This document shows, in pieces, positions 2,113 to 22,443 of a stretch of DNA of 64,000 nucleotides; position 1 is the first letter of the stretch; each line of letters starts with the position of its first letter. The DNA is taken from NCBI GenBank assembly GCA_938015875.1, contig CALLXE010000017.1:1-64000 (forward strand), read 5' to 3'. Source of the stretch: an uncultured Robiginitomaculum sp. (GTDB lineage: Bacteria; Pseudomonadota; Alphaproteobacteria; Caulobacterales; Maricaulaceae). The translations under genes and the position numbers were made by a program. The notes below the pieces were generated by a model, which was not told the DNA's origin, searched no databases, and saw only the letters and a program-made list of their open reading frames with translations.

Positions 2113-2949
2113 ATGAAACATCGTGCCCCTCTGATACAATACCAAATTGACGCCTTTGCAGATCGCCCGTTTACGGGCAATCCGGCAGCGGTCATCCTGA
2201 CCCCGGCCGCGCTTGATGCCGGCCTGATGCAAAATCTGGCAATGGAAAACAATTTGTCTGAGACAGCTTTTCTGACAGCCCGCGCGCAGTCCGGTCATTA
2301 TGATCTGCGCTGGTTTACCCCGACGGCGGAGATCGGGTTTTGTGGCCATGCGACGATTGCGGGCGCGCATGCTTTGATGACAGAACATGCCGCGCCTTTA
2401 ACCGCAAACGGCGAGCTTGTCTTTCACGGAAAAATCGGCGCTTTGCCTGTGCGCAAAGACGCCGGCCGGTATATCCTGCGCGCCCCCATAGCGCCTGCGG
2501 CAGCCACAGTCGTGACGCCGCAAATGCGCGCCGCGTTTCCCGCCCCAATAGAGTGCGCCTTTCGCGCGGAGGATAATCTTTATGTTGTGTTTGAAACGCC
2601 GGAGGACATTAAGCGATACGCACCTGATTTCTCGGCCATTCTTCCCCTCTCCCCGCGCGGCGTCGGGATTACGGCGCGCGCCGCAGATAACAGGCAGGAT
2701 TATGACTGCGTTTCAAGGTTCTTTGTCCCGGCCGAAGGTATAAATGAAGATCCGGTCACAGGCTCTGCCCACGCCGCCATTGGCCCTTATTGGGCCCGGC
2801 GCCTTGGCAAAACATCACTGACGGCCTATCAGGCGTCGGCGCGCGGCGGAACTTTACGCCTGACCTTAGACGGTGATCACATCGATATAGCGGGGCCGGC
2901 CGTAACGGTCATGAAAACCGAAATTTATTTGCCGGACGCGCCTATTTAA
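2113..2949 (+). CDS. PhzF family isomerase/epimerase
   Basis: YQIDAFADRPFTGNPAAV N-terminus, GFCGHATIAGAH and EDPVTGSAHAAIGPYW motifs. Confidence 0.92.
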   Translation: MKHRAPLIQYQIDAFADRPFTGNPAAVILTPAALDAGLMQNLAMENNLSETAFLTARAQSGHYDLRWFTPTAEIGFCGHATIAGAHALMTEHAAPLTANGELVFHGKIGALPVRKDAGRYILRAPIAPAAATVVTPQMRAAFPAPIECAFRAEDNLYVVFETPEDIKRYAPDFSAILPLSPRGVGITARAADNRQDYDCVSRFFVPAEGINEDPVTGSAHAAIGPYWARRLGKTSLTAYQASARGGTLRLTLDGDHIDIAGPAVTVMKTEIYLPDAPI

Positions 2950-4975
2950 TCCGCGCCCGAAAACTAAGCGTGAACTGCGGATCGGGAGAGCCGCTTTCAA
3001 AAACGCCTTTGGGATTAAAGCAGATATAACGCACGGCGGCGTCATAGCCGGGGCTTGGCGTATATGTGCATCCGGCAAAGGATGTCGGCTTTACCGCTGT
3101 GTTCCAATAGCCAACATCTGTGGCGTAATTAAAGGTCAGGGACGGCGTTCCCGTCCGGGTAAAGAACACAGGATCGGTAGGCCCATCGCCGTCATAAATA
3201 TCGCCGTTAAAAAATTCAATTTCCTCCGGCATGACGTCAATCAACACCATAGAATTAGGGTCGACGGATCCGTCCCCGGAATTGCTGACCGTAAAGGTGT
3301 AAACAATATCGTTGCCGGGAATAGCATAGAGACCCTCGGACAGCGGATCGTAAACCGTATTGGTCTTTACGGCCGCAACGTCCGGTAATGTGCGCGCGCA
3401 TGTTGATACGTCATGAATAGAGATGGCCTGTTGGCCGGGATTGACCGGCGTATTCGGGCCGGTGCCGCTGCCATAACGGATGACGAACTGATCTATCGGG
3501 CTTTGGAAGGTGACATAGACTGTCCCCAAATTTCCGTTATTGGCCGCCGCAGCCGTCCCCAATGCCGTGCCGCCGGACACTGTGTTTGACGGCCCGCGCG
3601 TTAAAGTCGGCAATACGGGATTACCGCCTAAAGATCCCGTCATAGTGATTTTATCTTCAAACTGACCGGTGCCGAAATCGACATCAAAAAGGGCAAATTG
3701 CGCCTCGTCTACGCCCGTTCCCGCAACACCCACATCAACCGTTGTAATAATTTCTGAACTGCGATTTGTATAATCAGTCAGCAATAATAATGCATTTTCT
3801 GTCGGAACAAGACCGCCGCTGTCATAATCCGAAAGGGCCGGCAGCGCGCCGCCACCCGGGTCGGGGTTTGCCTGAAGCGCGGCGGTCGCGCCGGTCAGTG
3901 TCCATACAATCGTCTCTCCGGATGTCGTATATGTATTGGTCAAATCTCCGCCGGGCCAGGCATTGCTGTCCCAATCGTGAATAAGCGGCGCAGCGCATGT
4001 CAGAGACGGCGGCGCTGTGACGGCCGGCGTAATGGAGCGGGTCACGTCATCATCTTCGCCGATCACGCCATTTCCGGGTGTACTGTCATCATCGCCTTGT
4101 CCGGCGGCTGTGATCTCTCCCGTAACGGTATAATCCCCGGTAAAATTCATCGTCGCAACAATGGTAATGGCTTGCGAGTTGCCGGAGGCCAAGCTTGTCC
4201 CCGGTGTCCATGTCACCACACCGCCACTATGGGTGGCCCCGCCGGTCGCCGATACAAATGTAAACCCGGTCGGGAGATTAATTTGCGTCGTTCGGCCGGT
4301 CGAGGCGGCAGGACCGTTATTGGTCACGGTCGCCGTAAATGTAACATTTGTGCCTTGAGCCGGTGTTGTCGGTGTGTGCGCCAAAGCCAGCGACAAATCA
4401 GCATCTGTCGGTGACGGGAAAAGAAGTTCGGCCCGCAGGAACGTGCCGTCGTCCAATCCGTTATAATTATCGCACATCGTGAAGACCCAGTTCCCACTTG
4501 CATTTTGGCCGTTAAAGGCTGACAGGGCGGCGTTTGGCTGCACGGCGTTTTCATAGGGGGGGGCAACCAATCCGTCATTGGTTGTATGGCCACCGGTATT
4601 AATGGGAGCCGCCGCGGAGTCATCAAGACGGACATTGTAGTTCGCACGAGCGCCGCCGCCGGCAAAATTTGACGCAATAATGCGCCGGGTGACCCCGCCA
4701 TGGGTCAGATCGACTTGGATATCACCGCGATATTCGTGGGATGCCAAAAACCCGACATCAAGACCCGCCACTGTGAAACTGTCCGGAACGTTAATGGTGC
4801 GGGTAAAGCCGGCGACGCCGCATGTCACCGTGTCATCAATCGGAGCAGGTGACGTATTCGTGTAGGGGCCCGTCTGCGCCATAACGGTCTGCGCGCCCAA
4901 GCTTGTGACAAGCGCGCAGGCGGTCAGACGCGCGAAAGCCGTCAGGCGCTCTGCTATTGTTGTGATCCCGCCCAT
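2942..4975 (-). CDS. Exported protein with proprotein-convertase-type P domain and DUF11-like repeats
   Basis: Start placed at internal Met (MGGITTIAERL...) giving a signal peptide. P-domain-like N region (DVGFLASHEYRGDIQVDLTHGG...NASGNWVFTMCDNY); DUF11-like segments (DLSLALAHTPTTPAQGTNVTFTATVTNNGPA; DVAAVKTNTVYDPLSEGLYAIPGNDIVYTFTVSNSG). Confidence 0.8.
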   Translation of the reverse strand: MGGITTIAERLTAFARLTACALVTSLGAQTVMAQTGPYTNTSPAPIDDTVTCGVAGFTRTINVPDSFTVAGLDVGFLASHEYRGDIQVDLTHGGVTRRIIASNFAGGGARANYNVRLDDSAAAPINTGGHTTNDGLVAPPYENAVQPNAALSAFNGQNASGNWVFTMCDNYNGLDDGTFLRAELLFPSPTDADLSLALAHTPTTPAQGTNVTFTATVTNNGPAASTGRTTQINLPTGFTFVSATGGATHSGGVVTWTPGTSLASGNSQAITIVATMNFTGDYTVTGEITAAGQGDDDSTPGNGVIGEDDDVTRSITPAVTAPPSLTCAAPLIHDWDSNAWPGGDLTNTYTTSGETIVWTLTGATAALQANPDPGGGALPALSDYDSGGLVPTENALLLLTDYTNRSSEIITTVDVGVAGTGVDEAQFALFDVDFGTGQFEDKITMTGSLGGNPVLPTLTRGPSNTVSGGTALGTAAAANNGNLGTVYVTFQSPIDQFVIRYGSGTGPNTPVNPGQQAISIHDVSTCARTLPDVAAVKTNTVYDPLSEGLYAIPGNDIVYTFTVSNSGDGSVDPNSMVLIDVMPEEIEFFNGDIYDGDGPTDPVFFTRTGTPSLTFNYATDVGYWNTAVKPTSFAGCTYTPSPGYDAAVRYICFNPKGVFESGSPDPQFTLSFRARIK

Positions 4976-5015
4976 CTTCCTTGTTTTCGCCTTATTTTTG
5001 GCGGAAACCCCTTGC

Positions 5016-8000
5016 CTAGCGCCCCGTCGGTGAAATTCTCTTAAGAAGCTTACCCGCAGTGTCTTGATCAAACTTTAACCTTAATTTGACGTAGGCACCG
5101 TCGCGGCTGTACTCTGCAGCTTCAAAATCGTCATCTGTATAGCCCTCAACATTATAGCCGAGGCTGATCCAAAGGTTCTCAGCCGGTGACACGCCGACAG
5201 ACGGACCATAGGCATAGGCGGTCGTGTCTCCGGTCGTAATCATTTGACCGTGGATACCGATATCAATGCGCGGCGTTACGTCGAACCGGGCTTCACCGCC
5301 AAGCAGGTTTGTCCAGTTTTCATAGCCCTGCCGGTCAATATCGGTCTCGACATGTTTCAGGCCCCAATAACCGGTAACCTGCGTGCGGTCATTGATCATC
5401 ACATTGGCAGACAGATTGTTAATCAGCTTCGTCGTTTTTGTATTATCTGTGGCGCGCTCATGTTTGTAATCAAACCGGTCCAGCACAACAATGCCTTCAC
5501 CGCGCGGACGCCATGCACCGCCGACGCGAATATCAGTCCGGTTTTCATTGCCGCCAAGGGCAAGGCTGTCGCCCTTACGCTCTTGAATTTGACTCCGCGC
5601 CGCGCCGGCAACGGAAAGCTCTTCAGACAGTTCACGGGCAATACCGGCACTGAGGATATAGGTCTCATTGCTTTGGGAATCGCGCGCTTCAATCCGGGCA
5701 GACGCAGAGGTTACGGCCGTGCGGTAACCGACGCCCAAATAGGTCGACAGATAATCTTCGCTGATATCAATCGGCGAGATTGCGTCATCGGGAGTCACTT
5801 CAAGTACTGTACTGCCAACGTCTTCTAAAATTCGGCGCTGCGAAATCCCTGTCGCCATGCTCCATTTTTCGTTCAGTTTAAATTGCTGGTCCACACCGAC
5901 GGTTGCGCCAAGGCGGCGGGCACTGTCTGCGGTCAGCATGTCGGTCTGCGCGCTGACATCTGTGCCGGCCCACGGCGTATAGGTCACGCCCAGCGTCGTA
6001 TTTTCACCGGAGGCATTTTGCCCCTCAAGTACTTCGTGACGCAGGCTGACAGCCGCTTTAGCCGTGATGGTTTTATCCAGACCCAGCGTTGTGCGCTGCG
6101 GGAAGGCCGAGCTCTCATCTTTGTCACCCAAAGGCTGCTCATGGGCGACAGACGCCGTAAAGCCATGCTTGGGTGATGTAAAGCGGGCCGAGCCCACAGC
6201 CAGAAAGCTTTCCCGCTGCTCTGCATCGGGCAGATTTTCTTTCACGTGACGCAGGCCAAGCTCAGCGCCGAAAATATCCCCGTCTTGGCTGACATTAATC
6301 TCGGTCAAGGTCCGCTTAGCGCCGGTCAGCAGACTTTCCTCCACATAGCTTTGGCCTTCAACACTGCGCATCATGCGGCGTCCGGTATCTTCCTGAATAT
6401 CTTCGGACAATGTATAGCTCGCGCCGGCGCCGTAACGGCGGATCCCGGATGTGCTGCTGCCCTGTTGCCCCACGCCAAAGCCGTCCTGCTCTTCGCGGAT
6501 ATAAGCTTGCGCCGAGAAATCATCGGATGTGTGAACGATTTCAGCCATATAAGCAGCAGCGTCTATAGTCTCGCCGCTGTCCTGTTTATCGGCAGAGACA
6601 GCATATTCCATACGCAGCTCTGTCGCTTCTGAAATGCGCGCAACCATATCAACGCCGACGACATCTTGCTTGCCGCCCGGACGATCGGCCCGGCCTTCTT
6701 CGTGAATATAGCTCGCTCCCAGCGTGACCTTGCCGTCTGCAAGTTTAACCGCCGCCCGCGCGCCATATGTCAGGTTACGCTCAGCGTCTTCTGATGTTTC
6801 ATAATCAACGACGATCACATTGGGGTTAAATTGCGTATCGGTCACATCCACAGGCAGACGGAAAATCAGCTCGCCTGTAAGGTAATCAATAGTGTAGTCC
6901 AAATGGCGACGCATAATTTTGGTTTCTAAAATTACGTCATTTCTGAATCGATCACGGGTTTCAACCGTCACCGTTTCCGTACCGCCCAAAATCGGAGAGA
7001 AGCGCGTGCGATACGGGCCTGACGTGCCATTGGCCGCCAGTTCGTCTTTGGCAAAACCCTGATTGGTCTCAGCCGCGAAAGCCACCAGATCAAACCGCTC
7101 ACCGGCATATTCGGTTTTAAACCCGGACAGACGGCGTGAATAACGGGTCAGCTCGCTGTCGATCAGATTGGTGTCATAATCCCCGAACATGGCATAGAAC
7201 GTATTGCGCTCAAGTTTCAGATAGACCGGATAGCGGCTGCGCGCTTCCTGCTCCTGATAGCTGCGGTCGCCATACAGCGTGTAATATGCGTTGGGATCAA
7301 TCTCTTCAAACAGATCACCATCGCGGCCGCTGCGGCGCTTGGACGTATCCACAGCCATAGTCATCAACCAGTCGCCTTTGATCATGCCTTTGGCAAAGAA
7401 TGCCAGGCGGCCTTCGACGATGTCATTGCCGTTATCGCTCAAATCAATTTTATTACCCTGAATTTCTTCAAGTCCGGCGGAGCCTTCGGCCAAACCGATA
7501 ATGATCCAGTCGCGTTTCTCCGGCTTTAAATACATAGACACATCAATCGTGCGGCCATCATCCAAGGTTACGGTCACAGTCGCGGTGCCGGTTTGCAGTG
7601 TCGGTTGCAGACGGATCAGCGCAATACCGTTAGCGCCCACAGAGGCATCAGCCCGCGAGGCCAAGGGCGCAACAAGTTCGTTACGGCTTTCCAAACGATC
7701 GGATGTCTCAAGGCGATAAGGCTCTTTGATGTCGACTTCCAAACGGCGGCCGGAATGCACCGGACGGCCCGCTTCATCTTCAATACGAATAGCAATCACC
7801 GGGCGCGTCCGGCCATCAGCAACCAGCACGGACTGATCCGGCGCAGGGATTGCGCGGGCAACAGTTTTAATAAAGTAAACTTCGCGGCGAATGGTTTTAA
7901 CGATGCGGCCCCCTGCATCTTTAACCTTAGCGATAAAGACGTTTTGGCCGTCCATCACATCAACACCCCGCCAGCGGCTCATCATAACCGTGCGCGCTTT

Positions 8001-10100
8001 ATTACTGTCGCGGGCCTGGAAGTTGAGCATAGGCACAGCATGACCGTTCAGCTCCAAGCTGACAGTTTGGCCTTTTGCGTGCTTGATACCGATATTGACA
8101 GACGGGGTAGACGGCGTCTTTCCCTCTTGCGGATAGACCCATTTGGCTTCATCCGTTTGAGTCTCGAGCCACTCACCGTCAAAGCTCAGATATTCCGTAA
8201 TATCTTTAAAAGCCTCATCTCCGGTGCCGGTGTCAATCTCGCCTGTGCGGGCCAAATAGAAATTTGCGCGCCAAATGCCGCCCCCTTTATTGTCGATAAA
8301 TTTCGACGTTTTAAGCCGCGCATATTGGCTGTTTTCTTCGCACATCATGGCGCTGTAACCTTGCGGCAAAGTTTCTTCATCGACCTGCACAACATGGGTG
8401 CCGGGCTTCACGCCTTCAAAATGATAAAGCCCATCTTCATCAGTAACGGTATAGTCACCGGTTTCCATATAAAGACGCACGCCGGAAACACCGGTGCCGT
8501 CCAAAATTTCTTTGGCCCAGTCCTCATCACCGTCACAGGCATATTCAGCCACGCGGCCGATAATTGTATTGGTCGACCGCAAAAGGTCTTCGCGCACGGT
8601 CACGGCCGCTCTGGCAATATTAGAGCTTTGTTCACCGTCACCGTTCAAAACAACAGCCGAGTTAACATAGTCTCCCTGCTGCAGGCTCGCGCCGATCTGC
8701 ATGATATACTTCAGCGTAAAACTCTCACCCGGCTGCAAAACAGGCAGGGTATAAGTCAGTTCCTGACCGTTGCCGGAGACTTCAGGGTCGGCAATTTTCA
8801 GCGCCCCAAGATAAGACGAGCCGCGCACGAACCGAAAGCCGCGGGGCATAACATCATGCACGCGCATAGTGGACGCAGCCTTGCCGGCATTTTGAACATT
8901 GACAGTGTAGCGAATAAAATCGCCAACATCACCAATGGTCGGAGAGGCTGTTTTTGTCAGGACAATATCTGTCTCAGGATCAATCGGCACGTCAAAATGC
9001 ATCGGTCCGAGCGCAGGCTGCGTAAACGCTTCGCCGTAAGAGCCATCATCCTCAATCGTGTAAGGCCCATTGGCAATATTTAAAAACTGCTCAGGTTTAT
9101 AGACAGAGCTGTAGGTAAAGCCGTCCGGCGTTTGAACCTTAAGATAATAATTACCGGGCTTTAAGATCGGAAATTTAAACTCACCGCTGCGAATTTCATA
9201 CGCGTAGCCACTGGCATCTTCGGTATCTTTACCGGACATGACGGCAGACGGATATGAGGACACACCATCAACGCCCAGCACGTCAGCCTCCTGTCCGGTC
9301 GCTTGATCAAAGATTGTCACCATAGCGCCGTCGATCAAATCCCCGGTCAGGGAATTAAACACACGGCAATAAGGATCAACCAAGGCTGTGTCGACGGACA
9401 CTTCCGTTGCGTCAAACGCATCAATATAAGTCGCGGTCAGGCGGGTTTCAGATTCGGTCGTAAGGCGATTATCATGTTGCGGGGTCGGGTCACGGTCCGT
9501 CGGAACGTAAGCCCAAAACTCACCCGTATCAGGGCCGCTCTCATAGAGACGCAGGATAATTTCATCAGCGCCGGAGGTCGCGATTGTAATCGTGACTGTC
9601 TCGATCAGGTTTGGATTCCCGTTCTGGCCGGGGTCACTCACCTTGACAAACATCAGCTCGCCTGTGGCGTAAAGCTCTGCCGGTGTCAGCGGAACTTCTC
9701 CTGACAGATCAATCTCATTTCCGATGCCGGTAACAGGGTTGCCGATATATTCAAACGGGCCGACTGCTTTACCGCCGGGCGAAAAATCAGAGCCGTTAAT
9801 CTTAACCGCATCAGCGCCGGGGACAGTCGGGGCAAAGCGGAAGAACTCAATCGTAGAGTCTGTCCGGCGCGCCACAACTGTAAACACCGCCGGGTTAGAC
9901 CTGATTGTAAGATCGCCGAATTCCGTCGAATAGCTGATCGAAGCAATATTGGTAACAGTACGTCCGAGGCTTGAGGCGTCTTGCGCCTCCGAATTGCCGA
10001 AGGACGCGAGCGTCAAAATTGCCACAGCGAAGCACTTTACCCAAATTTGGATAAATGAATTCACGTTAGACCCCACCTGATTTCCATTTCGTATCAGCAC
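5016..10100 (-). CDS. Very large exported protein (1694 aa): DUF11/CnaB-like N-terminal modules plus predicted outer-membrane beta-barrel C-terminus
   Basis: Continuous ORF; signal peptide (CFAVAILTLASFGNSEAQ); DUF11-like (DIVLTKTASPTIGDVGDFIRYTVNVQNAGKA); CnaB/SdrD-like (GVSGVRLYMETGDYTVTDEDGLYHFEGVKPGTHVVQVDE); C-terminal ~800 aa of alternating hydrophobic strands ending GAYVKLRLKF. Confidence 0.85.
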   Translation of the reverse strand: MLIRNGNQVGSNVNSFIQIWVKCFAVAILTLASFGNSEAQDASSLGRTVTNIASISYSTEFGDLTIRSNPAVFTVVARRTDSTIEFFRFAPTVPGADAVKINGSDFSPGGKAVGPFEYIGNPVTGIGNEIDLSGEVPLTPAELYATGELMFVKVSDPGQNGNPNLIETVTITIATSGADEIILRLYESGPDTGEFWAYVPTDRDPTPQHDNRLTTESETRLTATYIDAFDATEVSVDTALVDPYCRVFNSLTGDLIDGAMVTIFDQATGQEADVLGVDGVSSYPSAVMSGKDTEDASGYAYEIRSGEFKFPILKPGNYYLKVQTPDGFTYSSVYKPEQFLNIANGPYTIEDDGSYGEAFTQPALGPMHFDVPIDPETDIVLTKTASPTIGDVGDFIRYTVNVQNAGKAASTMRVHDVMPRGFRFVRGSSYLGALKIADPEVSGNGQELTYTLPVLQPGESFTLKYIMQIGASLQQGDYVNSAVVLNGDGEQSSNIARAAVTVREDLLRSTNTIIGRVAEYACDGDEDWAKEILDGTGVSGVRLYMETGDYTVTDEDGLYHFEGVKPGTHVVQVDEETLPQGYSAMMCEENSQYARLKTSKFIDNKGGGIWRANFYLARTGEIDTGTGDEAFKDITEYLSFDGEWLETQTDEAKWVYPQEGKTPSTPSVNIGIKHAKGQTVSLELNGHAVPMLNFQARDSNKARTVMMSRWRGVDVMDGQNVFIAKVKDAGGRIVKTIRREVYFIKTVARAIPAPDQSVLVADGRTRPVIAIRIEDEAGRPVHSGRRLEVDIKEPYRLETSDRLESRNELVAPLASRADASVGANGIALIRLQPTLQTGTATVTVTLDDGRTIDVSMYLKPEKRDWIIIGLAEGSAGLEEIQGNKIDLSDNGNDIVEGRLAFFAKGMIKGDWLMTMAVDTSKRRSGRDGDLFEEIDPNAYYTLYGDRSYQEQEARSRYPVYLKLERNTFYAMFGDYDTNLIDSELTRYSRRLSGFKTEYAGERFDLVAFAAETNQGFAKDELAANGTSGPYRTRFSPILGGTETVTVETRDRFRNDVILETKIMRRHLDYTIDYLTGELIFRLPVDVTDTQFNPNVIVVDYETSEDAERNLTYGARAAVKLADGKVTLGASYIHEEGRADRPGGKQDVVGVDMVARISEATELRMEYAVSADKQDSGETIDAAAYMAEIVHTSDDFSAQAYIREEQDGFGVGQQGSSTSGIRRYGAGASYTLSEDIQEDTGRRMMRSVEGQSYVEESLLTGAKRTLTEINVSQDGDIFGAELGLRHVKENLPDAEQRESFLAVGSARFTSPKHGFTASVAHEQPLGDKDESSAFPQRTTLGLDKTITAKAAVSLRHEVLEGQNASGENTTLGVTYTPWAGTDVSAQTDMLTADSARRLGATVGVDQQFKLNEKWSMATGISQRRILEDVGSTVLEVTPDDAISPIDISEDYLSTYLGVGYRTAVTSASARIEARDSQSNETYILSAGIARELSEELSVAGAARSQIQERKGDSLALGGNENRTDIRVGGAWRPRGEGIVVLDRFDYKHERATDNTKTTKLINNLSANVMINDRTQVTGYWGLKHVETDIDRQGYENWTNLLGGEARFDVTPRIDIGIHGQMITTGDTTAYAYGPSVGVSPAENLWISLGYNVEGYTDDDFEAAEYSRDGAYVKLRLKFDQDTAGKLLKRISPTGR

Positions 10101-10160
10101 GCCCGACTGTCGAAATTTGTAAAACCGGCTTTCAAATATTAAAAAAGAGAGAGAGTTTTA

Positions 10161-10189
10161 GCTGCGGCGGCATTCATCTCCGCCGCAGC
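10161..10189 (-). terminator. Intergenic hairpin between the 398-aa DUF11 gene and the 1694-aa gene (possible partial terminator or processing site)
   Basis: 10-bp perfect stem GCTGCGGCGG/CCGCCGCAGC with 9-nt loop; poor U-tract on the minus strand. Confidence 0.55.
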
Positions 10190-10207
10190 CGGTTTTTGTA
10201 TCAGCGC

Positions 10208-11389
10208 TTACTTAATCAAGGCGCGGATAACGACTGTACCGGTTTGACCGAAGTCAAGTGTGGCGTCAGTCACTTCGACGACACAAGCATCAGCAGCACA
10301 ATCCAAAGGATATGGACCGGCCGGAACTGACAAGTCAGCGGCGTCAAATGTTGTGACCTGAGCCGCAACAAACTCAAGGTCTGCCGGCAGCGTATCGGAA
10401 AAATCGATATCGGTTACATTTGATCCTGCGTTTGCGCCATTGTTTGTCACTGTAATGACATACTCAACACAAGCGCCCGGGATAGCCAGCGCACCGGCCG
10501 TTGCTGTTGCAGCAAAGTCGCCACAATCAGTGTCGTCTTGAGCGAAGACCTCGACTTCTTTAACAGCGTCCAAATCCGGATTAGCAACAACATATGTGCC
10601 TGTTGCAGCATATTGACCGTCATTTGCGCCGTCATTCGTGCCTGCACCATCGGAATCGATATCCGCAAGAACGTTTTCAGCCGCGCCGGTCAACGTGTTA
10701 CCGCCTGTATCAGCAACAGCCAAAACAGCCGTTGCGCCGGTTGTGCCGTCATTGGCTGTATCAGCAATCAATGTAACGTCAGCTTCGTCCAAATCGTCAA
10801 TCGCGCCCGGAACATCGCTGTCAATGACAACCCAAACCTGCGGTGATGTCGCTGACGGATCAATGCTGCCGGTCGGGGAGATCGTTTCCGTGTTAACGCC
10901 GGAGCCCGGCGTATATGTATAGGCTGTGCCGGCAATATCACCCGGGCCAAAGCCGGGAACGCCATCATCAAAGTAATATGTGATGTTCAGGCCTGTTGTA
11001 TCAAAGTCATCGTCGGTTGCGCTGACGAGGGAAAGGACGTAATCCTGTACGTCATTACCTTCATTGGTCAGCAAAAAGACTAATTCTTGGTCTGTAGAGC
11101 CCGGAACCACTGTCGTCGGCGCCGCCGGCGCAGTGATGGTCAGATCGATCAAACGGTCAACGGTAAAATCCGTCGGCGTGCCTGAACAATCCGTTGTCGG
11201 ACCGGCGACACATGTATCGCTGGTGTCGATAACCGGCTGCGGCGTTGTGCCGACCGTGTATTCAAGGGTAAATGTGTTTTGCACATTCGTACCTGCTGCA
11301 GTACCTGCGGCGTGAGCCGTGCCTGCTGAAAAGGCTGCAAGAGCGGACGCGCCCAACAGACATTTCAAAGTTCTAGATAAGTTTCCCAT
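10208..11389 (-). CDS. Exported DUF11-like protein
   Basis: Start at MGNLSRTLKCLLGASALAAFSAGTAHA with SD AAGGAAAG upstream; repeat-like segments incl. AVKEVEVFAQDD...CVEYVITVTNNGANAGSNVTDIDFSDTLP. Confidence 0.82.
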   Translation of the reverse strand: MGNLSRTLKCLLGASALAAFSAGTAHAAGTAAGTNVQNTFTLEYTVGTTPQPVIDTSDTCVAGPTTDCSGTPTDFTVDRLIDLTITAPAAPTTVVPGSTDQELVFLLTNEGNDVQDYVLSLVSATDDDFDTTGLNITYYFDDGVPGFGPGDIAGTAYTYTPGSGVNTETISPTGSIDPSATSPQVWVVIDSDVPGAIDDLDEADVTLIADTANDGTTGATAVLAVADTGGNTLTGAAENVLADIDSDGAGTNDGANDGQYAATGTYVVANPDLDAVKEVEVFAQDDTDCGDFAATATAGALAIPGACVEYVITVTNNGANAGSNVTDIDFSDTLPADLEFVAAQVTTFDAADLSVPAGPYPLDCAADACVVEVTDATLDFGQTGTVVIRALIK

Positions 11390-11731
11390 TGCACTTTCCT
11401 TCATTAGTGATGGGAAAATATAGCAAAGGGGCTTTAAATAATTCCAAACAACCGTGGTAAACAGACGGTTTACACACCCTACAAGCGTGGGGTGTTTGAA
11501 AGAAATGTAAAAAACCGTCGTGAATTTACGCAGTTTTCGGATTTATGTTGAGGGGTCTCTCGTCTCTCTTGCCGGTGACTTAAGCAAAGGATCAGGTGAT
11601 GTCACGCAAAAATCAGAAGCGCGGTTAGCACTTTCTTTGCAGACGCCCTTAACAGTTTGTAAAAACACCCGTGCCTTCAGACATTACGCCTGACCCCGCA
11701 ACTTTAATCGCGCCTGATACATAACGGCATT

Positions 11732-11761
11732 TATAAAATGCTCTTCTATAAAATGCTTTTC
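11732..11761. repeat. Tandem 15-mer x2 in intergenic region
   Basis: TATAAAATGCTCTTC followed directly by TATAAAATGCTTTTC (14/15 identical). Confidence 0.7.
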
Positions 11762-12514
11762 CGTGCAATCTGCCGCGCAAGGCTTTAGGCCCCATAAGCC
11801 CTGAAAATTTCAAAGATAAGATCGATTGTGCAATCTCTGTCAGAGCGCGCAAATTTATTTTCCCGGGCTTAGGGCCGATTTAAACGCCAAATTATGGACA
11901 AGAAAAGCTTAACCGATTTTACGCTGTTAAGATTTGATAAGGTTAATAAACATCCGGTTAAAGTCCCTGCCCCGTCTGATAATTTTGTAAATTCGGGAAG
12001 CCTAAATCTTAATGAAATATAAGCGAGATATTAACGTCGCAGCGAAGGATTCAGAAAGTTTTAAACATTGTGGAGACAGTCTGAAGTTTATAACCGCCGT
12101 AAATTTACGATTCACCATACAAAAAACTGTACCAAAAAGAGACGATTTACGCCTTGTTAAGAGGCCTCGATTCTCAGGCCGCAAATTTATTTTAAGCGGG
12201 CCAAACGCTATCTGCGCCGCCTCAGTTTTAAGTCAGATTCCTTGGGAAATTTCGAAACTTAAGTGATGTCATATGACGGTGCCATTGCGCACTCTCCATA
12301 CGTAAAACAGCAGAACGCCGGGCATTACAAGGCGTGCCATCCACGGCAGAGCCGGGGGCATATAGAAGGGCTTGCGCGCTGAAATTAAGGGCATATGCAT
12401 TAAGCGTCCCATTGCATAAGGCAGAGCTTCAGGGCTTTTAATAAATAGCACGTCGCCACGCAATGGAGCGCAGACCTCAAAGTTTGCAATCGACCCGATC
12501 AGTTAAAACGACAC

Positions 12515-12549
12515 AAAAAACCCGGCGCGAAAATCAATTCGCGCCGGGT
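12515..12549 (-). terminator. Rho-independent terminator of the 12573-13049 gene
   Basis: 11-bp perfect stem ACCCGGCGCGA/TCGCGCCGGGT, followed on the minus strand by a T-run. Confidence 0.85.
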
Positions 12550-12572
12550 CAAAATTGTGATCTTTAAAAAAG

Positions 12573-13049
12573 CTACTTAAGCAGGCCCTTAAAAGAGAGC
12601 TCGCCGCGCTCGCTTGGCGCAATCTCTTTTGTGACTGTCCAGCGAATATGCGTCAACTCTTCGGCCTTCGCCGGACGCAAACTGCCGTCAACATCAATAG
12701 TCATGACCGTCTCACGCTCTGAAAACGTGCTGCCATTATCCGCAGAGTAAAGCAGAGAGGCGATCTGCGTTTCCGCAGAACCTTCAATATAGGCCACATC
12801 AGAGGGGATCGGCATTGTCAGAACAATGTCGCCGGCCGGCTCGGATTTATCATTTAGATACTGCAGGGCGTAAATCACCTTTTCGCCGGGCGTGACCAAT
12901 TTGGCCTCTTCGCGGGTCAGGACAACTTCACCTGCGGGGTTTTGTGTTCTGACTTCTTTATAAACCTTTTGCTCTGCCGTGAGGGCCGTCGCGCTGACGC
13001 CAAACGCCATAGCGGCAATCACCGCGCTCGTTGAAATTATTCGCAACAT
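12573..13049 (-). CDS. Small exported protein with a single DUF11-like domain
   Basis: Signal peptide MLRIISTSAVIAAMAFGVSATALTA; LVTPGEKVIYALQYLNDKSEPAGDIVLTMPIPSDVAYIEGSA resembles a DUF11 fold. Confidence 0.75.
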   Translation of the reverse strand: MLRIISTSAVIAAMAFGVSATALTAEQKVYKEVRTQNPAGEVVLTREEAKLVTPGEKVIYALQYLNDKSEPAGDIVLTMPIPSDVAYIEGSAETQIASLLYSADNGSTFSERETVMTIDVDGSLRPAKAEELTHIRWTVTKEIAPSERGELSFKGLLK

Positions 13050-13148: not shown

Positions 13149-13775
13149 TCAATCAACGGGTCCGGAAGGGCTCGAAAATCCGGCCGACTTTCTCGGCGCG
13201 CGGGCGGCGCGGAGCGCGGAGCCTGCTGAGGCTGCAAAACTTTCAGAGCGGCTGAACTGATTAACGCTTAAGACCGGCGCATCTCCGGTTTTTAGGCTGA
13301 TCGTCATCAACGACCCGAAATCACGGCTTTGCTCCGGTGCGGGACGCTCCCATACATATAGCCGATCCTCATCGCCCAAATTATAAGCCGCCAAAGGCGC
13401 ACCCATTTGCGTTTTTAACCGCGATTCCAACCGCAGGCTTTCATCCGGACCGACAGGCGCATAATCAATAGCGATAAGCCGTCCCGAGCCAAAACTGTTT
13501 TCCAGCTCCCCTATTTTAAGGGTCAGGCGGTCGCCGCGGTCAGTGTCAAAACGGCGCGCAGGCGCAGGAACAATTGCGGCTTTTCCACTGCGGCGCCGCG
13601 TCTCATTTAACGGTTTAAAATCTGTTTCCGATAGGACAGCACTGCTGTCTGCGACCGATTGCCCGATATAAAGGCCCATAATGCTGAACGCATTTTCAGG
13701 CGCGCTTGACTGTGCGGCCGGCATAAAAGCGGCAGCAGCAGCGAATAGTAAAACAGCTGATAGTTTAAATCTCAT
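13149..13775 (-). CDS. Hypothetical exported protein
   Basis: Start at internal Met (MRFKLSAVLLFAAAAAFMPAAQSSA) giving a signal peptide; divergent from cpaB. Confidence 0.6.
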   Translation of the reverse strand: MRFKLSAVLLFAAAAAFMPAAQSSAPENAFSIMGLYIGQSVADSSAVLSETDFKPLNETRRRSGKAAIVPAPARRFDTDRGDRLTLKIGELENSFGSGRLIAIDYAPVGPDESLRLESRLKTQMGAPLAAYNLGDEDRLYVWERPAPEQSRDFGSLMTISLKTGDAPVLSVNQFSRSESFAASAGSALRAARAPRKSAGFSSPSGPVD

Positions 13776-13840
13776 ATCTCCGGATAGCCCGGAAAGTTTA
13801 AAATTTAGCCAATAGTTGCGTAAGTTTTTAACTAAAAATT

Positions 13841-13855
13841 TTAACCGACTGTTAA
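13841..13855. promoter_or_regulatory. Putative CtrA binding box
   Basis: TTAACCGACTGTTAA fits TTAA-N7-TTAA exactly; lies 70 bp upstream of the cpaB ATG. Confidence 0.6.
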
Positions 13856-13924
13856 TGGCAAACCTAAACCCGGCCTTCAAATCTTGTGTGCAAAGCTGCA
13901 ACCAAATCGGGATTTGGGATAATC

Positions 13925-14911
13925 ATGCGCATCAATACAATCGTCACCTTAGGGGCTTCGGCAGCATTCGGCATTATGTCGATATTTTTAGCGCGCAGCT
14001 GGATTAATGATGCGGTGTCCGCCCGTTTTGCGGGAGCTCCTGCCGCGCCGACGTTTAAAGCCCCGCCAAGCATTGAAACAGTTTCAATACTGGTCGCGGA
14101 TATGGATTTGAATTTTGGCGATCGTCTCGAGCCTCAACATCTGCGTCTTGTTAATATGCCCCAAGCGCTGGTTCCGGTCGGCAGTTTTACGGATTTCAAT
14201 TCCATGTTCGGTGATGGCGGTCGCCCGGCCGTTGTCCTGACTCAAATGCGCGCCAATGAACCGATCTTGGATTACAAAATAAGCGGCCCCGGCGGACGCG
14301 GCTCTTTATCCGCCTTGATTAAGGACGGTTATCGCGCGGCGTCTATACGCGTCAATGCCGTCGCCGGCGTATCCGGCTTTGTTCTTCCCGGCGATCACGT
14401 TGACGTGATTTTAACCCGCGATTTGGCAACAGGAGAGCAAGAGCGCCGCCTGACCTCAGACGTTCTTTTACAGAATGTCAAAGTCCTGGGCGCGGATCAA
14501 AGCGCTGACACAACGTCCGGCCAAGTCAAAGTCGCCGGCACGGTCACCCTTGAAGTTTTACCGGCCCAAGCACAAAAACTGGCGCTGGCCACCGATATTG
14601 GCTCCCTGTCATTGACGCTGCGTCAAAACGGCGAAACGCAAATTATGCCAATAACAAGCTTGTCTGAAAAACATCTGACAAGCCCGGTCAAAGCTGCGCC
14701 GGCGCGGGGGCGTTACGCAGCTTCGAAACCGGCGGCAACACGCCCTTACCGCGCGGCGGTTCCTGCCGGCGTTCCGACCGCTAAGGTCAATATTATTCGT
14801 AGCGGCGCCCGCGAAAGCGTCAGCGTCCGCAAAGAAATAATTGAAAAAAACCCTGAAGACTTTGAAGCCCAAACACTGACGCCGGCCCTCGCCGGCGCGG
14901 CAAAAGGATAG
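13925..14911 (+). CDS. cpaB: Flp pilus assembly protein CpaB (RcpC)
   Basis: Start at MRINTIVTLGASAAFG; SAF-like region, YRAASIRVNAVAGVSGFVLPGDHVDVILTRD motif; position in tad locus. Confidence 0.92.
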   Translation: MRINTIVTLGASAAFGIMSIFLARSWINDAVSARFAGAPAAPTFKAPPSIETVSILVADMDLNFGDRLEPQHLRLVNMPQALVPVGSFTDFNSMFGDGGRPAVVLTQMRANEPILDYKISGPGGRGSLSALIKDGYRAASIRVNAVAGVSGFVLPGDHVDVILTRDLATGEQERRLTSDVLLQNVKVLGADQSADTTSGQVKVAGTVTLEVLPAQAQKLALATDIGSLSLTLRQNGETQIMPITSLSEKHLTSPVKAAPARGRYAASKPAATRPYRAAVPAGVPTAKVNIIRSGARESVSVRKEIIEKNPEDFEAQTLTPALAGAAKG

Positions 14912-14914
14912 ATC

Positions 14915-16243
14915 ATGACCGCCAAGTTTTTATCTGCGCTGCTGCTGACATCAGCCTGTGTTTTTTCCGCGCCGGCCTCTGCCAAATCCTGGATTGAAAC
15001 CGCGCCGAGCGGGGAGCGCACCCAAGCCGATGTTACCACCGGCGCTCCGGTTGTGATGCGCACGGACGCAGCATTTTCCGATATTATGGTCGCTGACGCC
15101 AATGTTGCTGACGTTGTGGTTCTGACAGACCGGTCTTTTCACCTGATGGGTAAAACAAGCGGCAAAACAAATATCATGCTTTATGACACCCAAAAGCGGC
15201 TGATTGATATTGTTGATGTGAATGTCGGCTATGACGTCGCGGCGTTGAAAAAATCATTGTTTGAAACTTTCCCCGGCGAGCGCATTGAAGTGCGCCCAAT
15301 GGCGGGCGGCGTTTATCTGTCCGGTAAAGTGTCCGGCATGCCTGTCGCTGAGCGGGCGGTAAAAATCGCCCAAAGATTTGCGCCCAATGATGTCACCAAT
15401 GGCTTGATTATTAAAGACAGCCATCAGGTCTTGCTGGAAGTACGCTTTGTTGAAGCGTCCCGTGAAGCGGTTAAGGGCTTGGGCATCGGCCTTTTGGTCG
15501 GCAGCCCGGACGGCACGATCTCAACCAATCCAAGCGTCGGAACCGGCGGCGGCTTCGGTCAAGCCTTAGTCAACGCCGCCTCAGGAATTTATTCCATTGA
15601 TGTGGCCATAGACGCCCTTGAAGAAAAAGGCATTGTCCGCACGCTGGCCGAGCCCAACCTTGTGGCCATGTCAGGCGAGACGGCAAGTTTTCTGGCCGGC
15701 GGTGAATTTCCGGTTCCGGTTCCGGGCGATAACGGTCAGGTCGGTATTCAATTTCGCCAATTTGGCGTCGGTCTCGCCTTTACGCCGACTGTTCTGGATG
15801 ACGGCATCATCAATTTAAAAGTCAGCCCGGAAGTCAGCCAGCTTGATTATTCGCGCACAGTCGCCATTAACGGCACCGAAGTTCCGGCGCTGACCGTGCG
15901 CCGGGCTGATACTACGGTCGAGCTTCGCAATGACCAAAGCTTTGCCATTGCGGGCCTTTTGCAGAACACTTCATCTGATTCCAAAGCCCAAGTGCCTTGG
16001 CTGGGTGACGTGCCGATTTTAGGCAGCCTGTTTCGGTCAAGCCGTTACACCAAAAATGAAACCGAACTGGTCATTTTAATCACGCCGCGCCTCGTCGCGC
16101 CGGCGTCTGATATTTCTGATCTGGCAACGCCGCTGGATAATCTGTCGACGCCGTCAGACGGCAGTAAATTTCTGCTCGGCGCGCTGGAAGGCCCGGCCGT
16201 TACCGGCGGCCTGTCCGGCACATATGGTCATAGTTTTCAATAG
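14915..16243 (+). CDS. cpaC: Tad secretin CpaC (RcpA)
   Basis: Secretin motifs VPWLGDVPILGSLFRSSRYTKNETELVILITPRLV; BON-like N-terminal region. Confidence 0.94.
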   Translation: MTAKFLSALLLTSACVFSAPASAKSWIETAPSGERTQADVTTGAPVVMRTDAAFSDIMVADANVADVVVLTDRSFHLMGKTSGKTNIMLYDTQKRLIDIVDVNVGYDVAALKKSLFETFPGERIEVRPMAGGVYLSGKVSGMPVAERAVKIAQRFAPNDVTNGLIIKDSHQVLLEVRFVEASREAVKGLGIGLLVGSPDGTISTNPSVGTGGGFGQALVNAASGIYSIDVAIDALEEKGIVRTLAEPNLVAMSGETASFLAGGEFPVPVPGDNGQVGIQFRQFGVGLAFTPTVLDDGIINLKVSPEVSQLDYSRTVAINGTEVPALTVRRADTTVELRNDQSFAIAGLLQNTSSDSKAQVPWLGDVPILGSLFRSSRYTKNETELVILITPRLVAPASDISDLATPLDNLSTPSDGSKFLLGALEGPAVTGGLSGTYGHSFQ

Positions 16244-16252
16244 GAGTGCGGG

Positions 16253-16501
16253 ATGAGATATTTTAAATTAACGGCTGTCCTTGCCGCAACAATTACCGCC
16301 GGATGCGCTACCGCGCAGCCATCTATGCAGGCACATGTAAACAGCGCCGTTAAATCCAATATTGCGGCGCAAGAAATTACGCCGCCGGCTGCGCAAAAAG
16401 CCAACCGCAACATTCCGCAAGACCGCGCCCTGCGTGATGCAGCAAGGCAACGCTATAAGACGGATGCCGTGAAACCGCCAAGCCGAACGGGAACACAATA
16501 G
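16253..16501 (+). CDS. Short putative lipoprotein in the cpaD position
   Basis: 82 aa with lipobox ITAGC; located between cpaC and tadG-like gene. Confidence 0.65.
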   Translation: MRYFKLTAVLAATITAGCATAQPSMQAHVNSAVKSNIAAQEITPPAAQKANRNIPQDRALRDAARQRYKTDAVKPPSRTGTQ

Positions 16502-16569
16502 ACCAAACATATACCGGTCGGGAAACCGGAGGAAAGTTTAAAACGGCGGGGGCCGAAACGGGATATAAA

Positions 16570-18105
16570 ATGACTGACTTCAGAACTTCAAAATTTAAAA
16601 AACTTACCCGCGACACCTTTGGCGGCGTCGCAGTTTACGCCGCGATTACTGCTCCTGTTATGGTCGGCGGTGCGGCCCTATCCGTTGATGTTGCCCGCCT
16701 GCACAATTTGGATCAACAATTGCAAAGCGCGTCAGATGCCTATGCCCGCGCCGCTGCGGCAGAGCTTGACGGGCGCGCGGATTCCATTGCCCGCGCCAAT
16801 CGCGCAATCAACACTTTGGTAAAAAATGATCAAACCTATGCCGCAAGTAAATCAACGGTCAGCATAAGTGCTGCACGGTTTTTAAAAGAGTTGCCGCCCA
16901 ATGATTATGACGCCATTCCGGCAAGCTATGTCACTACCAATCCAAACGAAGCGAAATATGTCGAAATCTCTGTTGCGCCAACGCAGATTGACACGCTGTT
17001 TCCGGCAAAAATATCGCGCGGGATTACCGCGGTAACGCTGGACGCCAAATCCACAGCAGGTTTTGATTTCGGTGTATGCGGCGCGGCCCCTGTATTTGTC
17101 TGTAATCCGTATGAAGGCACGGGGATGAATCTTTACCAAGCGCTGGAGCAGCAATCAGAACGTCGCCGTCAAATTAAATTTCTGACCCCCGGCGGCGGGT
17201 GCGAAGAATTTGCGCCCGGCGTGTTCGGATTTCTTGACCCTTATTCTAAAAACGGCGTCAGCGGCGCAAATATTATCCGCGATAAAATAGCCATTGATAA
17301 AACAGACACGTGTTTTCAAAGTTCCGGTGTGAAACTGCGTCCCGGCCGCATCAGCTCTGTTGCCGATGCGGTGAATGTTCGCTTTGATATTTATAAAGGC
17401 CGTTACAAGCGCTCAAGCTACATGAATGACCCGGCCTTTGCGCCGGCGACGAATGTCACCAAAGGCTATGGCCCGAAATGGTCAAATCGTCACAAGAAAT
17501 ATATCAGTACGAAAAGCTGTGACATGGTGCCGAACGACACCGCCTTGGCTATGCCTCGTGACGCGTGTTTTGAAAATGGAACCTGCACGGATATGGGCGG
17601 CAATATGGGTAACGGAAATTGGGACTTTCTACGCTATATGGAAGTCAATCATAACCGTATGCGCACAATCACAATTGCAGACACGACCTATCATTTTAAT
17701 TATGGATCGCGCACGGTCACGCCGTCGAACCTGCCAAGCCGCTATGAAATGTATCGCTGGGAAATTGATAATGATTGCGTTCCGGGCGCGCTGACTTATG
17801 GCCGCAATGCAAAAACTCCGGAAGAGGGTCGGCCGACCTGCCATGCGACCGGAGCTTATGAGGGCGACATTGACCGCCGCGTCATCACAGTTGCGGTTTT
17901 AAACTGTGACGAACTTTCGATGAATTTTAATATGCATCAAGACTCCCGCGAGAAAGTTCCGGCCGAGGCCTTTATTGATGTCTTTATTACCGAACCGATG
18001 GCCCGCGGGAACGGCGGCAATGACGGTGGGTTTTACGGCGAAATGGTAGGTACGCTTAAGGGTGACAGCACACTGGCCCGTGACCGGATCGCGATGGCCC
18101 GTTAA
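16570..18105 (+). CDS. TadG-like pilus assembly protein (Tad N-terminal domain)
   Basis: FGGVAVYAAITAPVMVGGAALSVDVARLHNLDQQLQSASDAYARAAAAELDG. Confidence 0.85.
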   Translation: MTDFRTSKFKKLTRDTFGGVAVYAAITAPVMVGGAALSVDVARLHNLDQQLQSASDAYARAAAAELDGRADSIARANRAINTLVKNDQTYAASKSTVSISAARFLKELPPNDYDAIPASYVTTNPNEAKYVEISVAPTQIDTLFPAKISRGITAVTLDAKSTAGFDFGVCGAAPVFVCNPYEGTGMNLYQALEQQSERRRQIKFLTPGGGCEEFAPGVFGFLDPYSKNGVSGANIIRDKIAIDKTDTCFQSSGVKLRPGRISSVADAVNVRFDIYKGRYKRSSYMNDPAFAPATNVTKGYGPKWSNRHKKYISTKSCDMVPNDTALAMPRDACFENGTCTDMGGNMGNGNWDFLRYMEVNHNRMRTITIADTTYHFNYGSRTVTPSNLPSRYEMYRWEIDNDCVPGALTYGRNAKTPEEGRPTCHATGAYEGDIDRRVITVAVLNCDELSMNFNMHQDSREKVPAEAFIDVFITEPMARGNGGNDGGFYGEMVGTLKGDSTLARDRIAMAR

Positions 18106-18563
18106 TGATTTACCGTTTTCATAAAGATACGCGCGCCAGCATAAGCGTTGAAGCCGGGCTCGCCCTGCCCTTTCTTATCCTGTTAGGGATGGGCGCGGCG
18201 GACTATTCCAACATGCTGATTTCGCATCATAAAATGCAGGCAAGTCTGACCAATGCCGGCGCTTATCTTGCCCGTGCAGGCGCCGCGCCGGCGTTTGAAG
18301 ATCGTGCAAAAAATTTGGCCGTAACAGGAGCTTTGTCCGGGGGCACGGCAAAGCTTCCCGGCTGGACAAAAGACGACATTACGATTGCCTACAAGACAAC
18401 CGTTAACACCGGCGGCCAATATCGCGGCCTCGACGTCAAAGTCGTTCAAATCTCTACCGCGCTTGATTACCGCGGCTTTGGCCTGGTGAACGCGATTGTG
18501 CCCGGCCGCGTGACCATGACCGACAGTTTTGAAGCGCGTATAAACGGCGGCGGCACGTCATGA
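18105..18563 (+). CDS. TadE/TadG-like pseudopilin
   Basis: RASISVEAGLALPFLILLGMGAADYSNMLISHHKMQ hydrophobic N-terminal helix with conserved Glu. Confidence 0.85.
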   Translation: MIYRFHKDTRASISVEAGLALPFLILLGMGAADYSNMLISHHKMQASLTNAGAYLARAGAAPAFEDRAKNLAVTGALSGGTAKLPGWTKDDITIAYKTTVNTGGQYRGLDVKVVQISTALDYRGFGLVNAIVPGRVTMTDSFEARINGGGTS

Positions 18564-19174
18564 CCCGGCGCAATTTCACCCAAGATCAGTCCGGCATTGC
18601 ATCTGTTGAATTTGCGCTCCTGTCCGGGATTTTGATCGCAGTTACGCTCGGCGCGGTGGAACTGGGCCTTGGCTTTTTGCAATATAACAGCGTGCAGCAA
18701 GCGGCCCGCACCGGCGCGCGTCTGGCCGCCGTCTCTGATCCTGTGGCGTCCGATATGACCGTAATGACCGGCCTTGGCGGCGGAACGTCCGCCGGCGACG
18801 CCATGCCGGCCTATAGCCGGGTTTGCAGCGGAAAAACGCAGCGCTGCTCAGGCGGGCAATACAGCCGGGCGGCTATGAACGCGATTATTACCGGTCCGGA
18901 CAATGACGGAACCTGCGCCGCAACACAAAAAGCGCGGCGCGGACTTTGCGATGTAAAGCCCGGCATTACCCGCCAAAACGTCACCGTAACCTATACGGGA
19001 TCAGGTCTCGGAAAGGCCGGAAATCCTGCAATTTTAGCGCCGCTTGTGACCGTGAAGGTCAGCGATCTAACGTTTGATTTTATCGTTGCTGATGCCTTCT
19101 TGCCCGCAAGTTTTTTAAAAATTCCCGACATAGAAGTCTCGGTTATGGCCGAAGATCTGAGGACTCGATCATGA
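18560..19174 (+). CDS. TadE-like pseudopilin
   Basis: SGIASVEFALLSGILIAVTLGAVELGLGFLQYNSVQQAARTGARLAA. Confidence 0.87.
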   Translation: MTRRNFTQDQSGIASVEFALLSGILIAVTLGAVELGLGFLQYNSVQQAARTGARLAAVSDPVASDMTVMTGLGGGTSAGDAMPAYSRVCSGKTQRCSGGQYSRAAMNAIITGPDNDGTCAATQKARRGLCDVKPGITRQNVTVTYTGSGLGKAGNPAILAPLVTVKVSDLTFDFIVADAFLPASFLKIPDIEVSVMAEDLRTRS

Positions 19175-19980
19175 GCGCCCAAGCGACACAGCCAAATTGC
19201 CTCGCATTTATGGGTGCCATTGGCGGCGCCGGCGTAACAGGCGCCGTCATTGAAACGGGGTTTAGCATTTTAAAGGCAAAGCGCCCGGGCCATGCGGCTG
19301 CGCCGCGCGTTTGTCTGATGGATTTGGATTTTGAAAACGGCGCTTTGGCCGGCTATTTGGATGTTTTACCCGGCGTGGATACCGGCGTTTTGGCCGGCGA
19401 TCCCGCGCGCATTGACGGCGCGCTCGCCTCTGCCTTTGTCAGCAAGCATCCGAGCGGTCTTCGCGTCTTGTCTGCCCCCGGCCTTTTGGGCGGAAATAAC
19501 AGCGTCAACGCAGATTGCGTCTTGGCTTTAATGGACGCAGCAGCAAGTCTGTATGATGTCCTGATACTTGACGTGCCGCGCCTCTGGCAACCGTGGACCC
19601 AAGCTGCGCTTATGGCCTCTGATCGCAGCGTGTTGATCACAGAAATGAACATTCCTGCCCTGCATCATACCCGCGATCGCTTGGCTCAAATGGACGCAAT
19701 AATGCCCCAAAGCCCGCCGATTGAACTTGTTATAAACAAGCATGAGCGCCGCAGCTTTCGCGCCGCAATTACTGCCGACGATGCGCGGCAGGCCTTGGAG
19801 CGCGACATTACAGGCTTTGTTTGCATTGACGCCGCAACGCCGCGCAATGCCATGAATTGCGGTCAACCCGCCGGCAGTCTTCATCCGGACAGCCGCTATG
19901 TTAAAGATTGGGACGCGCTGTCCCGCAAACTCATGACCCCGGCCCGGACGCAATCTGCACCCGCGCAGGCGACAGGATAG
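19171..19980 (+). CDS. CpaE/TadZ-like atypical ParA-type ATPase
   Basis: MGAIGGAGVTGAVIETG (degenerate P-loop), CLMDLDFENGALAGYLD, YDVLILDVPRLWQPWTQAAL; located directly before cpaF. Confidence 0.82.
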   Translation: MSAQATQPNCLAFMGAIGGAGVTGAVIETGFSILKAKRPGHAAAPRVCLMDLDFENGALAGYLDVLPGVDTGVLAGDPARIDGALASAFVSKHPSGLRVLSAPGLLGGNNSVNADCVLALMDAAASLYDVLILDVPRLWQPWTQAALMASDRSVLITEMNIPALHHTRDRLAQMDAIMPQSPPIELVINKHERRSFRAAITADDARQALERDITGFVCIDAATPRNAMNCGQPAGSLHPDSRYVKDWDALSRKLMTPARTQSAPAQATG

Positions 19981-19989
19981 GCGGTAGAT

Positions 19990-22435: not shown

Positions 22436-22443
22436 GGCGCGCT

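Follow-up and report, generated by a model that had tools for sequence, protein, structure and literature searches.

Our analysis of a 64,000-nucleotide stretch of an uncultured alphaproteobacterial genome (hereafter the window, which belongs to contig 17 of a draft assembly of 1.83 Mb, 68% complete) suggests that four of its genes encode parts of an adhesive surface fibre whose subunits would be linked through donor-strand complementation of their DUF11 (CLIPPER) domains, a reading that we hold with moderate confidence on the basis of protein sequences. The nearest named relative found is an uncultured Robiginitomaculum metagenome-assembled genome, the source of the one locus returned by a single-protein scan of genome contigs. 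The four genes all lie on the minus strand, in the order P0004, P0003, P0001 and P0002, and we refer to their families as A3 (P0004), A2 (P0003), A1 (P0001) and P2 (P0002-like proteins). A first-pass annotation had described here four co-oriented genes for exported DUF11-type proteins, which our work confirms, with signal peptides judged by eye and lengths of 158 amino acids for P0004 (as annotated), 393 for P0003 (previously ~394), ~1682 for P0001 (previously 1694, from an earlier GTG) and ~677 for P0002 (previously ~678). The DUF11 label itself applies to P0001, P0002 (2e-18) and P0003 (1e-5, profile 15–61), which match the Pfam family; P0004 only shows a sub-threshold similarity to NCBIfam TIGR01451 (22.2 vs a cut-off of 24 bits).

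In DUF11 domains, renamed CLIPPER, an intramolecular bond connects a Lys in the first strand to an Asn near the end of the domain with an Asp acting as catalyst, a triad represented by Lys715, Asp748 and Asn806 in PDB 9IFR (PMC12617251). The DUF11 domain located inside P0001 (residues 378–499; 9e-14) is nearly whole, covering profile positions 1–113 of 114, carries K370, D403 and N467 in 14/14 sequences, and is the only one in which we found the three residues together in the same domain. In A2, P2 and A3, the C-terminal DUF11 domain ends, in our alignment, at the strand that precedes the Asn-bearing hairpin, the absent hairpin being the YVNSAVV...SNIARAAVTV segment of the complete P0001 domain. 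These truncated domains, which would be the acceptors of the fibre, lack a conserved Asn and, A3 apart, keep both Lys and Asp in 71/73 cases (31/31 near and 20/21 distant A2; 16/17 near and 4/4 distant P2). A3 has lost the Lys in 22/22 sequences, the Asp being kept by three distant ones, and both residues are lost in 3/4 of the A2 paralogues unlinked to the cluster. A single alignment underlies all triad positions, and the 71/73 count leaves out P0002, whose Lys and Asp were read by eye. In a general control, most of the DUF11 matches listed were full-length or nearly so. Among the same listed matches, those running into a stop codon came mostly from genomes with A1 or a related barrel (G302, G629, G643, G521, G570 and G204) and in one case from a genome without any (G639); the tie between stop-ending domains and barrel genomes is only suggestive.

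In A2 and A1 proteins, the mature chain opens with a strand, for example GTNVQNTFTLEYTV or GRTVTNIASISY. In 33 A2 sequences, the positions equivalent to V36, N38, F40, L42, Y44 and V46 of P0003 are invariant or nearly so. A motif describing this putative donor occurs in 54/58 A2 and 19/24 A1 proteins and in 0/22 A3 and 0/17 P2 (shuffle expectation 1.6, 0.5, 0.2 and 0.4, respectively). Because the donor motif is missing from P2 proteins, although these retain Lys and Asp, their Asn strand would need to come from another chain. Direct sequence tests of the donor brought little. When the P0001 N-terminus was appended to the P0003 C-terminus, the Pfam DUF11 score rose from 29.9 to 35.4 bits and the match extended to profile position 113; one shuffled version gave 30.6 bits (+0.7 vs +5.5). 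Likewise, hhalign aligned the donor with the final strand of DUF11, at a score of 15.2 vs a maximum of 14.5 among 100 column shuffles.

Several observations weigh against this assignment of donors. The regular expression for the motif was written after the sequences had been seen, and some distant A1 proteins have Ser in place of the donor Asn or no motif at all. Appending the own N-terminus of P0003 to its C-terminus produced no gain in Pfam DUF11 score, a hidden Markov model of the tail of the A1 DUF11 failed to pick up the donor N-termini (median p against shuffles of 0.64 for A2 and 0.10 for A1), and the hhalign placement has a probability of only 3%. Moreover, in the AlphaFold2 monomer model of P0003 the N-terminal stretch makes short bridges only, and its packing site is not shown. 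The homology of the donor to the missing hairpin is weak, and the case for donors is one of pattern, not of homology.

These weak direct tests of donor-tail homology also speak for another scenario, a set of surface adhesins without polymerisation, in which P0001 would be a self-contained fibrillar adhesin with a C-terminal barrel anchor and the small DUF11 proteins separate secreted or outer-membrane-associated proteins, their C-terminal DUF11 being compact but complete and the N-terminal hairpin packing in cis, against the first domain. DUF11 domains are normally found in the stalks of monomeric fibrillar adhesins (PMC12617251) and, in the AlphaFold2 monomer of P0003 (mean predicted local distance difference test score, pLDDT, of 81.6), the C-terminal domain folds at ~95 without a partner, with residues 30–60 at 77–85. 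However, such adhesins would leave unexplained why Lys and Asp persist in nearly all of the truncated domains devoid of the Asn strand, why this strand is found in A1 and A2 only, and why the families co-occur so strictly (see below), and we regard them as unlikely.

In the donor-strand fibre that we favour, the acceptors would be P0003 and P0002, which end in a DUF11 without its last hairpin, and P0004, a similar truncated single domain, and the donors P0001 and P0003, whose mature N-termini would supply the missing piece as a strand or hairpin. The base would be P0001, inserted in the outer membrane by its barrel, and its N-terminal strand would complete the C-terminal DUF11 of the first P0003; the N-terminus of each P0003 would then complete the next subunit, and the chain would end in acceptor-only proteins, namely P0004 and the P0002-type proteins with their P-domain, GEVED or ice-binding heads. 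The P0001 barrel is also a candidate route for the subunits across the outer membrane. Because the acceptors keep Lys and Asp and the donors bring Asn, many joints might be sealed by a spontaneous intermolecular Lys–Asn bond. The analysis itself shows the prediction of a barrel, the truncation, the persistence of Lys and Asp, the segregation of the donor motif, the co-occurrence and the order of the genes; we infer pairing in trans, the Lys–Asn bond, polymerisation, an extracellular topology and a role in adhesion. A natural, self-assembling covalent fibre of Gram-negative bacteria, with DUF11 split in evolution into a C-terminal Lys/Asp “catcher” and an N-terminal Asn “tag”, with subunits that polymerise and lock with no need of a chaperone, usher or sortase, and with a barrel base and exchangeable adhesive heads, is a more tentative proposal, to which we give rather less than even credence.

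The distribution of the families is in agreement with a shared function (alignments comprised 14 A1, 14 A2 and 11 A3 sequences). Among 137 genomes of the family, 49 contain a strong A1; A2 is present in 49/49 of these (plus one weak A2) and A3 in 43/49, and neither A2 nor A3 was found in genomes of this set without any barrel match. Fisher tests of association with A1 gave 1e-36 for A2 and 2e-29 for A3; these values ignore phylogeny and, as the genomes are related, overstate independence, which tempers the argument. A2 lies directly upstream of A1 and co-oriented with it in 45/49 genomes, the missing adjacencies being explained partly by contig breaks, and the order A3-A2-A1 is found in 31. 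Outside the family, the A2 profile matches 24/32 A1-positive genomes (11 of the 24 strongly, some weakly) and 0/30 A1-negative ones. Distant loci of other alphaproteobacteria, and of lineages outside this class that we guess to be gammaproteobacterial, repeat the order A2'-A3-A2-A1, in many cases with a P2 gene alongside. Chance does not account for this gene set. Of the four genes expected to be co-conserved, three are strictly so, and the one for the 677-amino-acid protein falls into a looser class with varied heads and a shared C-terminal domain; it adjoins the other three in some genomes only.

In this P2 class, the heads differ (P domain, GEVED, ice-binding) and the C-terminal domain is common to all. 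The P domain previously proposed for P0002 is clear in its relatives (down to 7.5e-10) and sub-threshold in P0002 itself (0.05). One distant genome encodes, beside A1, a protein (L125:609-1817) that combines an ice-binding-like domain (PF11999, 2e-60) with a truncated DUF11-type C-terminus. P2 proteins are encoded inside the cluster as well as away from it, and matches to their C-terminal domain are confined to genomes with an A1-type barrel. Such unrelated heads carried by one C-terminal domain, within and away from the cluster and only where the barrel is present, together with the very large size of this barrel, would also fit an export system in which P0001 is the translocon and the truncated DUF11 a docking or sorting tag, following a logic like that of the C-terminal signals of type IX secretion and needing no fibre. 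This export would be compatible with the fibre model. By itself, it leaves unexplained the donor-like plus acceptor-like ends of P0003, and the poorly modelled part of P0001 (stretch 244–507 of the model, see below) does not allow a plug or pore to be read there; we consider it rather improbable.

P0001 consists successively of the donor hairpin, Ig/CnaB-like modules (Ig, immunoglobulin), the complete DUF11, SdrD_B, two Ig-like domains, a conserved module and the C-terminal barrel. The CnaB-like modules announced in the first-pass annotation for its N-terminal part are borne out by matches to SdrD_B (3e-9) and CarboxypepD_reg (1.5e-9), and the large barrel announced for its C-terminus by an AlphaFold2 model of residues 604–1681 based on 14 sequences. 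This model comprises two Ig-like domains followed by ~30 long strands, mostly with pLDDT of 70–89; overall, its mean pLDDT is 64 and its predicted template modelling score (pTM) only 0.36, and most of its stretch 244–507 between the Ig-like domains and the barrel, which distant relatives conserve well, scores below 50. The last strand bears a beta-signal-like motif, RDGAYVKLRLKF, and paralogues have C-termini of the GWFINAIAKF type. As antiparallel long strands and a beta-signal at the C-terminus are both predicted, the interpretation of the P0001 C-terminus as an outer-membrane barrel is well supported by the model. A sequence search of the PDB with the barrel gave no match, and Foldseek retrieved generic large barrels (TonB receptors, LptD, ushers, SlpA, SprA) with low template modelling scores (TM-scores). 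In some species the N-terminal half of A1 and the barrel are encoded by separate adjacent genes. Several relatives (among them L029, L030 and L064) have giant open reading frames of ~5000–7000 amino acids with 20–29 DUF11 repeats, in the parts analysed, ahead of a related barrel; they are probably fibrillar adhesins with a similar anchor. Because so many repeats would hardly fit in the periplasm, the N-terminal region of A1 would, by analogy, be extracellular. With its several Ig/CnaB-like modules and its barrel, P0001 might itself be a fibrillar adhesin (a long surface protein with a repeated stalk and an anchor), a description which the giant paralogues fit well. A second, distant barrel paralogue of 1165 amino acids is encoded in the same genome as the window (L033:11505-15002, on G000:C51).

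The barrel protein had been proposed to anchor or export the smaller proteins as a surface layer or fibre; two checks that could have refuted this did not, a barrel being predicted and three of the four genes strictly co-conserved, and we favour its role as the anchor of a fibre. The presence of SlpA and of the Deinococcus SDBC complex among the generic Foldseek matches of the barrel, and the proposal that archaeal DUF11 proteins form part of surface layers (S-layers) (PMC12617251), could evoke a scaffold, S-layer-like or periplasmic, that is attached to the outer membrane, instead of an adhesive fibre. Nevertheless, TM-scores on the query did not exceed 0.24 among the barrels listed, the Pfam scans revealed no SLH or other S-layer hallmark, and the varied adhesion-type heads suit display better, so that such a layer appears very improbable.

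As in chaperone–usher pili (type 1 and P pili), each incomplete Ig-like domain would receive its missing strand from the N-terminus of a neighbouring subunit, and the tip protein would only accept (PMC9715654); the two would also have in common an outer-membrane barrel partner and the same polarity, with the acceptor towards the tip and the donor coming from below. They differ in that the pilin domain is here DUF11 and that the isopeptide Lys, Asp and Asn are seemingly split between subunits; in terms of a missing terminal Ig strand supplied by a neighbour, the truncation of the acceptors is clear and the homology of the donors weak. Neither a PapD-like periplasmic chaperone nor an usher family was found among the window genes scanned (117–27879), the rest of the genome not having been searched for a chaperone. 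Archaeal threads (Saci_0406), which we compared through their published description, are also donor-strand fibres; an isopeptide bond between their subunits has been proposed, and a putative cap is encoded close by. However, the bond reported for them links an Asn and the N-terminal Asp of a subunit two positions further on, instead of Lys and Asn within a completed domain; no mention is made of DUF11, and threads have no outer-membrane anchor (PMC9715654). CLIPPER fibrillar adhesins, such as Acinetobacter silvestris B9T28_05395 (PDB 9IFR), belong to the same domain family, with the triad kept in the internal DUF11 of P0001, but their bond forms within one domain of one chain and their anchor is OmpA-like (PMC12617251), in contrast with the large barrel and the C-terminal domains without Asn strand described here. 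SpyTag/SpyCatcher and related engineered split isopeptide domains similarly pair a Lys-bearing part with a strand bearing the partner residue and join spontaneously (PMC5487036, PMC6539128); they are engineered and, for SpyTag, of CnaB type, whereas the split proposed here would have arisen naturally in a CnaA-like DUF11 and would build up a polymer. Type V autotransporters share an exported N-terminal region and a C-terminal outer-membrane barrel, but this has about 12 strands vs ~30 predicted in P0001, whose system moreover has separate partner proteins. We found no description of DUF11 donor-strand fibres in the open-licence literature, most subscription journals lying outside it. We file the system as a new form of donor-strand fibre by function, outside the chaperone–usher, thread and Tag/Catcher families.

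Other candidate identities were discarded. P0001 as an usher found no usher match in Pfam or NCBIfam, PapC and FimD appearing only among the generic Foldseek barrels, and as an autotransporter it showed no Pfam or NCBIfam match to an autotransporter barrel, besides its strand number (~30 predicted vs about 12). For type IX secretion, there was only a sub-threshold PorP similarity (13 vs 90.6 bits), and no sorting domain in the Pfam scans. P0004 as a periplasmic chaperone, an idea set aside less firmly, was not supported, this protein being a single truncated domain. Family assignment of the barrel and of P0003 from Foldseek was dropped, only generic large barrels and Ig folds having matched.

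Table 1. Features of the DUF11 gene cluster, with positions in the window
Feature	Position	Strand	Description
P0002, exported, proposed tip or cargo	2942..4975	-	~677 aa (amino acids); P-domain-like head, DUF11, truncated C-terminal DUF11 ending FTLSFRARIK
P0002 truncated C-terminal DUF11 (approximate limits)	2945..3366	-	Lys and Asp present, last hairpin absent
P0001, exported, family A1, proposed base	5016..10064	-	~1682 aa from GTG after AGGTGGGG; 1694 aa from upstream GTG
P0001 C-terminal region, ~30 predicted long antiparallel strands (outer-membrane barrel)	5076..6773	-	Beta-signal-like last strand
P0001 complete DUF11	8562..8984	-	Lys370, Asp403, Asn467 invariant 14/14; CLIPPER isopeptide triad in cis
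P0001 N-terminal hairpin, residues 33-62 after GTG	9876..9965	-	Proposed donor to first P0003; N38 invariant in 14 family members
Hairpin between P0003 and P0001	10160..10190	-	Short T-run; -23.1 kcal/mol, z -4.8
P0003, exported, family A2, proposed main fibre subunit	10208..11389	-	393 aa from ATG with Shine-Dalgarno sequence
P0003 residues 268-393, C-terminal DUF11 without last hairpin	10211..10588	-	K277 (10559-10561), D332 (10394-10396) invariant
P0003 residues 33-46, proposed donor strand GTNVQNTFTLEYTV	11252..11293	-	V36, N38, F40, L42, Y44, V46 alternate
Intrinsic terminator after P0004	12519..12550	-	13-bp stem then T-run; -26.5 kcal/mol, z -6.5
P0004, exported, family A3, proposed cap or initiator	12573..13049	-	158 aa; single truncated DUF11-like domain, acceptor only, without isopeptide Lys and Asp

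The P0004 gene is probably a separate transcription unit, because a strong terminator follows it (Table 1), and the hairpin between P0003 and P0001 is possibly an attenuator or an mRNA-end structure. Both are present in the compared locus L016, and some other loci have hairpins at the same place between P0003 and P0001. Judging from sequence, this layout would fit the production of more P0003 than P0001; the number of terminators in the region (16) is near chance (shuffle mean 14.1). The ~1.17 kb between P0004 and P0003 (11405–12572) contain no plausible gene and are patchily conserved; the gap is also long in L016 and measures 75–384 bp in the other measured genomes. An Rfam search of the window, this gap included, gave no match. 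On one side of the cluster, a hybrid histidine kinase (117–2099) has family relatives beside the cluster in eight compared loci. On the other side, a 250-amino-acid exported-looking protein without family match (13149–13901) is kept, among the compared loci, only in L016. It is followed by a Flp/Tad pilus cluster (13886–24239), divergent from the DUF11 cluster and comprising CpaB, a CpaC-like secretin, TadE/TadG-like proteins, a T2SSE ATPase, two T2SSF proteins and a TPR protein; CpaB and the secretin are also neighbours in L016, L018 and L025.

If our interpretation is correct, these genes would represent a new class of donor-strand fibre spread across alphaproteobacteria and apparently gammaproteobacterial lineages. 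It would explain the joint role of a group of widespread proteins labelled “DUF11 domain-containing”, and would provide natural counterparts to the SpyTag/SpyCatcher chemistry. It would also offer a rule to search for tip proteins, a C-terminal DUF11 that keeps Lys and Asp and lacks the Asn hairpin, which leads here to P-domain, GEVED and ice-binding heads.

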